IMG/VR virus record: IMGVR_UViG_3300031507_000010
Location: 1 to 45,712 of that record
Length of the DNA stretch: 45,712 bases
Source of the DNA: a virus
Strand: one strand, 5' to 3'
A program made the position numbers and the translations under genes. Under the pieces are notes generated by a model. It ran no database searches, was not told where the DNA came from, and saw only the letters and a list, made by a program, of their open reading frames with translations. Shown here piece after piece: positions 37,293-39,152 of this stretch. Numbering within the stretch: position 1 is the stretch's first letter; every line of letters begins with the position of its first letter.

Positions 37293-38005
37293 TCCTTCCT
37301 GAGCGGGAGCCGAACGGGTTGATCGTCCTGGACACGTTCTGCTGCGGGGGCGGCATGGGCATGGGCTACCACCTAGCTGGGTTCACCGTCGTCGGGGTGG
37401 ACATCGAACCGCAACCCAACTATCCGTTCCCGTTCGTACAGGCGGACGCGGTGGAGTTCATCCGCAGTCACGGCCACGAGTACGACCTGATCCACGGATC
37501 CCCTCCTTGCCAGGCGTACACGCCGCTGAATGCCTACAACCACAAGACGTATCCTGACCTGATCGGGCCGACCAGGGACGCGATGGAGGCCACCGGTCAG
37601 CCGTATGTGATCGAGAACGTGGAAGCGGCCAGGTCCGAGATGAAGGATCCGGAGTTGCTGTGCGGGCCGATGTTCGACCTGCGGATCTACCGGCACCGGC
37701 TGTTCGAGACGAACTGGCCGCTGGCCGCGCCAGCCCACAAGCCGCACGTCGCCCTGTGCTCCCGCAATGGCTATCTGCCCACGGCGGAACGACCGTTCAT
37801 GTCCGTTCATGGCGGCAAGCACTCCAAAGCGTGGCAGCGAGCCGCCGCGGATGCCCTGAGCATGCCGTGGCTGCGCGTTCCGGACGGAGGCGACACCAAG
37901 CGGGCCATCCGCGAAGTGTGCGAGGCCATCCCGCCGGCCTACGCCCAGTGGATCGGACAGCGAGCCGCTGAGTACATCAGGTTGCGGCGCGCAGGGCCTC
38001 GATGA
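37289..38005 (+). CDS. DNA cytosine C5-type methyltransferase-like protein (copy 2)
   Basis: 238 residues. Motif I V-L-D-T-F-C-C-G-G-G (13-22), V-D-I-E-P-Q-P-N-Y-P-F (37-47, shared almost exactly with copy 1), catalytic S-P-P-C-Q (71-75, Cys74) and an intact I-E-N-V. More canonical than copy 1 at the E-N-V box. It sits at the end of the rightward island, bracketed by the 21-bp direct repeat, and its 3' end overlaps the convergent gp10-like gene by 29 bases. Likely an anti-restriction gene. Confidence 0.82.
   Translation: MILPEREPNGLIVLDTFCCGGGMGMGYHLAGFTVVGVDIEPQPNYPFPFVQADAVEFIRSHGHEYDLIHGSPPCQAYTPLNAYNHKTYPDLIGPTRDAMEATGQPYVIENVEAARSEMKDPELLCGPMFDLRIYRHRLFETNWPLAAPAHKPHVALCSRNGYLPTAERPFMSVHGGKHSKAWQRAAADALSMPWLRVPDGGDTKRAIREVCEAIPPAYAQWIGQRAAEYIRLRRAGPR
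37976..37996 (+). repeat. 21-bp direct repeat, right copy
   Basis: Identical to 37257-37277. On the plus strand it encodes I-R-L-R-R-A-G at the end of the methyltransferase; on the minus strand it encodes the last residues (A-L-R-A-A-T) and stop of the gp10-like structural gene. Confidence 0.8.
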
Positions 38006-38369
38006 GGAATCCGTTCGGCCGGGTCCCGGGATGATTCACGTACCGGGCGTAGACCACCCGGCCACCGATCTCGAACCGCAGAACGCCCCCGCGTCGCTTT
38101 GGCTGGATCCGGTGGGGCCGGGTTCCGTTCACCACGTAGATGGTCGCGGGGTGCGTGGACGTGATCGTTCCGATCGGCCCGTCGTGCGTGTAGCGCAGGG
38201 ACGTACGGATGCCGTTCCCCATGGACCCCGGTGCGAGGCGCTGTGCGGCCGCCTGGACGCGTTCCACACGTCTCCTGAGGGATCGGTCCACCGCGCCCCC
38301 GGGAAGTCGTAGGAGACGCGCTACACGGCTCTGGTCGAGCCGGAACGAGGTGGACACGTTGAAGGACAT
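37977..38369 (-). CDS. Head-tail joining protein, HK97 gp10-like
   Basis: 130 residues. The sequence R-V-Q-A-A-A-Q-R-L-A-P with later Y-V-V-N-G-T-R-P-H-R-I and Y-A-R-Y-V-N-H-P-G-T-R-P-N-G-F-L-I-E-A-L resembles HK97 gp10/minor capsid neck proteins. Position between connector genes and tail chaperones fits. Its last codons lie in the 21-bp repeat and overlap the convergent methyltransferase gene. Confidence 0.7.
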   Translation of the reverse strand: MSFNVSTSFRLDQSRVARLLRLPGGAVDRSLRRRVERVQAAAQRLAPGSMGNGIRTSLRYTHDGPIGTITSTHPATIYVVNGTRPHRIQPKRRGGVLRFEIGGRVVYARYVNHPGTRPNGFLIEALRAAT

Positions 38370-38401
38370 GCACCCAGTGTCCTCGGTACGCTTGTCAGCG
38401 T

Positions 38402-38488
38402 GGCGGAGGTCGCTGGTTCGAATCCAGTCACGTCCCCGAACGGGGAGTCAACGTGTAGCGCAGCTCGGTAGCGCGCCGTCGGCATGAA
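38402..38488 (+). ncRNA. tRNA-like sequence with permuted halves (3' half before 5' half)
   Basis: In order: GGCGG, AGGTC, a perfect T arm (GCTGG-TTCGAAT-CCAGT), CACGT; a linker with hairpin CCCC-GAAC-GGGG; then ACGTG, TA, a perfect D arm (GCGC-AGCTCGGTA-GCGC), G, CCGTC and GGCATGA. CACGT pairs with ACGTG (acceptor side) and GGCGG with CCGTC (anticodon stem, one G-U). The two halves thus fit one cloverleaf, but in reversed order, as in permuted tRNA or two-piece tmRNA genes. CAT falls at the anticodon position. Only 5 acceptor pairs are seen and no CCA follows the 3' acceptor strand. Confidence 0.45.
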
Positions 38489-38509
38489 GGGGTCCTACGG
38501 GGCCCCTTC
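38486..38509 (-). terminator. Hairpin terminator at the end of the tail terminator-like gene
   Basis: GAAGGGG pairs with CCCCTTC around TCCTACGGGG. It lies just past the stop of the leftward gene and could also end a rightward tRNA-like transcript. Confidence 0.6.
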
Positions 38510-38511
38510 TG

Positions 38512-39018
38512 TCAGTTCCTCGGCAGCGCGACCAGGAAGCGCAGCTCGTTGCCGACGCATCCGCCGGACGGTCCCTGCGCGGTGAGCGGGTTCAGGAAGA
38601 AGTCGATGATCTCCCGGTCCGCCTTCATCTCGCACAACTTGACCGAGACCGCCTTCAGCAGGCCGTAGGCGTCGGTCAGGATCTCCTGGGCCGATGCGGT
38701 CAGGTCCGCGATCGTCGGGACCAGCGTCTGATCGTCCGGGTTAGGGGCGCAGCGGATGAGCTGCACCACGATCTCCGCCACGTCCCATGCTGCCTTGCAC
38801 GCGGTCGCGGTGGTGAGCGGGAGAGGGAAGTTGTCGGACAGGTAGATCCGGGCCACGGACACGGCCAGCAGCCCGCAGTCGCACGCGTCCCAGGCGATCG
38901 CCCCGGGCACGACACTGGACCGGTCCGGAGGATTCGCCGCGATCTCGGTATCGATCGCCAGACGCACGGTCTCCGCCACGGTGTACCACTTCAGCGGTCC
39001 GGTGATGAGCGCCACCAC
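38512..39018 (-). CDS. Head-tail joining or tail terminator-like protein
   Basis: The start is placed at GTG 39018 or 39015 behind TGGAGG; a longer frame upstream reads another gene out of phase. 168 residues, beginning V-V-A-L-I-T-G-P-L-K-W-Y. Mixed alpha/beta, with D-A-C-D-C-G. In actinophages proteins of this size between connector and gp10-like genes are tail terminators or stoppers; assigned by position. Confidence 0.55.
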   Translation of the reverse strand: MVALITGPLKWYTVAETVRLAIDTEIAANPPDRSSVVPGAIAWDACDCGLLAVSVARIYLSDNFPLPLTTATACKAAWDVAEIVVQLIRCAPNPDDQTLVPTIADLTASAQEILTDAYGLLKAVSVKLCEMKADREIIDFFLNPLTAQGPSGGCVGNELRFLVALPRN

Positions 39019-39152
39019 GGCCTCCAGACGCCATCGCGGGTGTTCTCGTCCCGGACCTTCTGCCACTTCCCGTACGGCCCGTAGTTGAACAAGTAGACCT
39101 CAAAGTTCCGGCGCTCCCTGCGCTCCCGCCACCGGGCCCATGCACCCCGCAT
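38991..39152 (-). CDS. Small basic Trp/Arg-rich protein (53 residues)
   Basis: ATG 39152-39150 overlaps the upstream TGA (TGATG). The product (MRGAWARWRERR...) has a very Arg-rich helix, then F-N-Y-G-P-Y-G-K-W-Q-K. It overlaps the next gene by 28 bases. Orderly coupling and composition suggest it is real; perhaps a small head-tail component. Confidence 0.6.
   Translation of the reverse strand: MRGAWARWRERRERRNFEVYLFNYGPYGKWQKVRDENTRDGVWRPWWRSSPDR

Follow-up and report, generated by a model that had tools for sequence, protein, structure and literature searches.

The virus-derived window (the whole analysed stretch of 45,712 nt) carries a complete permuted tRNA-like module at positions 38402-38480 (+), on a short insertion between two late genes. 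We consider it rather probable that this insertion is a moron encoding a Ro-independent tRNA mimic, similar to a Y RNA, that would occupy tRNA-binding proteins of the host; transcription, RNA ends and protein target are what we infer from the DNA. The fold is kept by compensatory changes in two further phages, although the acceptor-like stem is weaker in one of them.

Architecture of the module and its flanks

The module runs in the order anticodon-like strand, T arm, capped acceptor-like stem, D arm, anticodon-like strand (Table 1), with a single G between the D arm and CCGTC. All pieces named by the first-pass annotation are present where it placed them, and the T arm does precede the D arm, as it does in the YrlA module described below. 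A contact between the GG of the D loop and the T loop, forming an elbow, is possible. We drew random sequences of the window's composition with both arms given, geometry fixed and G-U pairs allowed: both cross-permutation stems were perfect in 18 of 200,000 draws (p ~9e-5). Chance resemblance was rejected on this ground, and the earlier claim that CACGT/ACGTG and GGCGG/CCGTC pair across the permutation beyond chance was borne out. The permuted fold lies at most 1.1 kcal/mol above the minimum free energy in the window.

Table 1 Features of the RNA element and its surroundings, in window coordinates
Feature	Position	Strand	Remarks
Late gene, HK97 gp10-like tail completion/neck protein	37977..38369	-	PF04883, phrog_5; downstream of insertion on its own strand
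Insertion of 141 bp carrying the RNA gene	38370..38510	+ (RNA)	Empty site in relatives
TACGCT, TANNNT -10-like box (actinobacterial)	38387-38392	+	9 nt before module
GGCGG, 5' strand of anticodon-like stem	38402-38406	+	Pairs with 38476-38480; compensatory in L298 (AGAGG/CCTCT)
AGGTC	38407-38411	+	Read from sequence
T arm GCTGG-TTCGAAT-CCAGT	38412-38428	+	Canonical loop TTCGAAT; compensatory change in L298
CACGT, first acceptor-like strand	38429-38433	+	Pairs with ACGTG
Capped acceptor-like stem with linker hairpin and 5-nt bulge	38429..38455	+	Computed fold; two pairs changed on both sides relative to L137
Linker of 17 nt	38434-38450	+	Self-pairs CCCC-GAAC-GGGG
ACGTG, second acceptor-like strand	38451-38455	+	Pairs with CACGT
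TA	38456-38457	+	Read from sequence
D arm GCGC-AGCTCGGTA-GCGC	38458-38474	+	GG in loop; sequence and YrlA model match
CCGTC, 3' strand of anticodon-like stem	38476-38480	+	Covariation
Strong GC hairpin	38481-38513	+	-24.1 kcal/mol; no gap after module
Late gene phrog_810	38512..39066	-	Upstream of insertion on its own strand; unknown function

The feature runs past the end first assigned to it, as the GC hairpin follows CCGTC without a gap. Equivalent hairpins stand in the two relatives L137 (-19.7 kcal/mol; also gapless) and L298 (at once after the module). The one in the window lacks a T run, hence the terminator scan missed it; it is likely a transcription terminator, and may in addition extend the anticodon-like stem coaxially.

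On the other side of the module, the TANNNT box recurs as TATCCT in L137 and TACCCT in L298, 8 nt before the module in each. Its occurrence in all three by chance has a probability of about 5e-7. Consensus scans, which are tuned to other consensus forms, gave no E. coli-type promoter match. We infer that the box is a promoter. Alternatively, it may be left over from the TTACTTC motif of Y RNAs, which is similarly placed; the -10 box is favoured because the sixth base is T in three of three.

Relation to Y RNAs and Ro60

No Rfam model matched the window at gathering scores. In a permissive search of the region, the best match was the bacterial Y RNA YrlA (RF02553; 35.4 bits, E 2.4e-6), spanning exactly the T arm-D arm module, that is, model positions 23-86 of 114. 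The gathering score of RF02553, 69 bits, is not reached by the window element; Ro-linked YrlAs of phages and Streptomyces are also sub-gathering at about 20-50 bits, with those of phages Olaya and Sparky at about 25-50, overlapping the element, so this threshold does not tell them apart and excludes nothing by itself. YrlA is composed of a tRNA-like domain and a basal stem tethering Rsr/Ro60, and PNPase is bound by the former, a module that mimics tRNA (PMC8394870). Competitive inhibition of an anticodon nuclease has been proposed as another role (PMC7790460).

With YrlA the element shares the strand order, the T arm, the capped acceptor-like stem, the D arm and the short anticodon-like stem, as well as a bit score near that of phage and Streptomyces YrlAs. 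The tRNA mimic suggested by the first-pass annotation thus holds, by way of this match. Unlike YrlA, the element has no detectable outer stem for Ro60 binding, and its record yielded no Ro60 gene; conversely, it has a hairpin directly 3' of the module and a TANNNT box of its own. In a shuffle test on the window and L137, the outer duplex was no better than with shuffled flanks (z of +0.24 and +1.25, respectively); the corresponding z in Ro-linked RNAs is -1.2 to -2.9. Near the element, neither of the Ro-type motifs GTTACTTC and GGTGCGMAGGC was present. As both a Ro stem and a Ro60 neighbour were tested for and not found, we do not file it as a Y RNA: it probably works like the mimic half of one.

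A TROVE (Ro60) gene was found in none of the window, L137 and L298 records, which are possibly fragments, so that such a gene could lie outside them. Relatives 57-66 kb in length have neither the RNA nor TROVE. Among Streptomyces with YrlA, TROVE is present in seven of seven genomes tested, about 1 kb downstream of a YrlA, and it is lacking in the three of three without a strong YrlA match. It is also present in three terminase-related phage records with Ro-type RNAs. The phage YrlAs that stand beside Ro60 in Xanthomonas phage Olaya and Mycobacterium phage Sparky are phage-encoded and contain the same module as our element, but keep the outer stem, a motif of the GTTACTTC or GGTTATCC type and the TROVE neighbour. 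In Sparky the neighbour is an annotated Ro-like protein; in Olaya, the TROVE gene, with a hypothetical-protein annotation, follows a YrlA array. Exceptions to the linkage exist: several phage records with no TROVE match (e.g. G004, G008), maybe fragments, have YrlA-like matches.

Two YrlA-like loci deserve a mention of their own. Olaya (L048:2457-4457) holds at least three unannotated YrlA-like RNAs just upstream of QTZ82393.1, a TROVE/Ro60 protein. In a window-related phage with an 86.6-kb record and no TROVE match, L300:1501-1574 (-) holds a YrlA-like module whose acceptor-like stem has 7 bp and which may have an outer stem; we leave it unassigned.

Insertion site and minimal relatives

The insertion is clean: it adjoins the stop codon of one minus-strand late gene and, on its other side, the start codon of the following one, with the RNA on the strand opposite to the late operon. 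In three close relatives (L003-L005), whose flanks are 88-95% identical over 300 nt on each side, the site is empty, GAAGGACAT being followed by GTCAGTTCC with nothing between (junction GGACAT/GTCAGTTCC). The hairpin reaches beyond the insertion, its final three bases (38511-38513) being part of the old flank. The best reading of the insertion is a moron, a self-contained small-RNA gene with predicted promoter and terminator. On the minus strand, the insert supplies a GAGGA ribosome-binding-like site (38370-38390) ahead of the gp10-like gene, similar to the one that it displaced, which lay at the end of the upstream gene. A DNA-level search found no close phage record for the window; the nearest bacterial relatives found for its capsid protein are in Streptomyces (51-62%), which is therefore the likely host.

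The same minimal form is present in two further phage records, bringing the members found to only three. In L137 (IMGVR_UViG_3300010045_000003, 42,299 bp) the RNA is upstream of the terminase gene; in L298 (IMGVR_UViG_3300046717_000225; in L255) it directly follows the reading frame of the terminase and lies on the opposite strand. L137 shares nearly the whole module, with an acceptor-like stem changed on both sides (CACTC/GGGTG), only 5 bp long and tightly capped by a 6-nt loop. In L298, the anticodon-like stem and the T stem are changed and the acceptor-like stem is weaker, with three of five pairs by alignment; as the enforced fold lies 8 kcal/mol above the minimum, this is the weaker case.

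Over the three members, 96.5% of cells are paired and five pairs are changed on both sides, compared to at most one two-sided pair in slid controls. Where the first-pass annotation had looked to relatives for halves that vary without pairing, L137 and L298 vary and stay paired, less firmly in the acceptor-like stem of L298. The structure also covaries over 13 YrlA-like modules, although pairing in the T, acceptor and D stems was the criterion by which these had been chosen.

The terminase relatives of L137 include contigs also related to the window: the phages are thus akin, yet their RNAs are at different places. The layout of box and hairpin is common to all three members at their three different genome positions. 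Exact-element patterns returned only L137 from the viral collection besides ordinary tRNAs, and nothing from the genome collection or from 393 Streptomyces genomes. The one plasmid match inspected (L172) is an ordinary tRNA, and the AbbeyMikolon tRNA-OTHER matches are ordinary annotated tRNAs.

Alternative readings and proposed function

A permuted tRNA gene, whose transcript would be circularised and cut to a working tRNA, is a highly improbable reading of the element. It has all tRNA core positions, and its 3' half stands ahead of its 5' half as in the permuted tRNA genes of some algae and archaea, but an acceptor-like stem that is capped, with only 5 bp in L137 where a tRNA acceptor has 7, cannot form a mature tRNA end. 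The RNA ends and the hairpin break up the anticodon loop, position 33 is not a T, and no anticodon is defined. ARAGORN found no tRNA and no tmRNA in the window, and covariance models of tRNA and tmRNA gave no match at the element. The splicing endonuclease is not known from bacteria. The RNA can imitate a tRNA but cannot be one. The chances of a tmRNA-like piece or an attachment-site rearrangement, both also put forward by the first-pass annotation, are close to nil. Attachment sites of phages often contain tRNA halves, and two-piece tmRNA genes have the same strand order, the permuted tmRNA (RF04321) likewise running from a 3' acceptor strand through an intervening loop to the 5' strand. However, even with the threshold relaxed to E 10, RF04321 did not match the region, while both it and the tmRNA model gave matches elsewhere; the element also differs from it by a perfect D arm. 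As the 28-nt T half is absent, within 3 mismatches, from 61 Streptomyces genomes, an attachment-site origin lacks support; no integrase was seen among the proteins scanned, and the insert carries its own terminator-like hairpin.

Two other readings stay closer to Y RNAs, and we hold both to be unlikely, the second slightly more so. The element might have no present function, being what is left of a full Y RNA in decay or of tandem tRNA genes; its rarity (three cases) would fit, and tandem identical tRNA genes do imitate a permuted tRNA. Against decay speak the compensatory changes among the three members and the layout repeated at three genome positions, and the linker misfits tandem tRNAs, having no 7-bp acceptor and no CCA spacer, and in L137 only a 6-nt loop. 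It might otherwise be an ordinary Y RNA that uses the Ro60 of its Streptomyces host, with TACGCT as a remnant of the UUACUUC loop and a short or divergent outer stem. Streptomyces hosts do carry Ro60 and YrlA, the box is roughly at the TTACTTC position of Ro-type RNAs, and the flanking strands can pair into a weak stem. Yet this stem did not surpass shuffled flanks in the window and L137, the strong 3' hairpin leaves it no room, and the two motifs missing near the element are common in Streptomyces Y RNAs. In addition, most Ro-type motifs have C as the sixth base, where the box of all three members has T.

In the reading that we prefer, a moron-borne tRNA mimic independent of Ro, an RNA of roughly 110 nt would begin at the anticodon-like stem, fold into the permuted tRNA body and finish in the GC hairpin. 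Its T loop and D-loop GG would present a tRNA-like elbow to tRNA-binding proteins of the host; with no acceptor end and no anticodon, it would be neither charged nor decoding. As no Ro60-binding part is detectable, the RNA probably acts by imitating tRNA to host proteins rather than by decoding. It could act as the decoy of a nuclease that targets tRNA, or else bind PNPase or tRNA-modifying enzymes. More tentatively, and with some doubt, such RNAs might constitute a distinct class of Ro-independent phage decoys built on a permuted tRNA, which derive from Y RNAs by reduction to the mimic module, are carried around as morons, and block tRNA-cleaving defence nucleases or redirect PNPase. Ro-less forms may already have been described in the bacterial Y RNA literature. 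Y RNAs are described as two-part molecules, made of a Ro60-holding stem and a tRNA-mimic module; if our reading is true, a free-standing mimic module with no detectable Ro60 would mean that the mimic part is useful on its own, and would offer a natural minimal RNA for asking which host protein it targets.

Finally, tandem identical tRNA genes were considered as a source of the element and rejected: they do produce such a pattern, as in L223 and L226, but both the linker and the missing second T arm exclude them here. A permuted-tRNA covariance model scores such genes at 60 bits in these two Streptomyces genomes, since strands in the T half of a copy are complementary to strands in the D half of the copy that follows; they are a built-in false positive for permuted-tRNA searches. 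A permuted tmRNA (RF04321, 76.7 bits) was seen at L093:11835-12122 (-); this viral contig carries a YrlA-like module as well.
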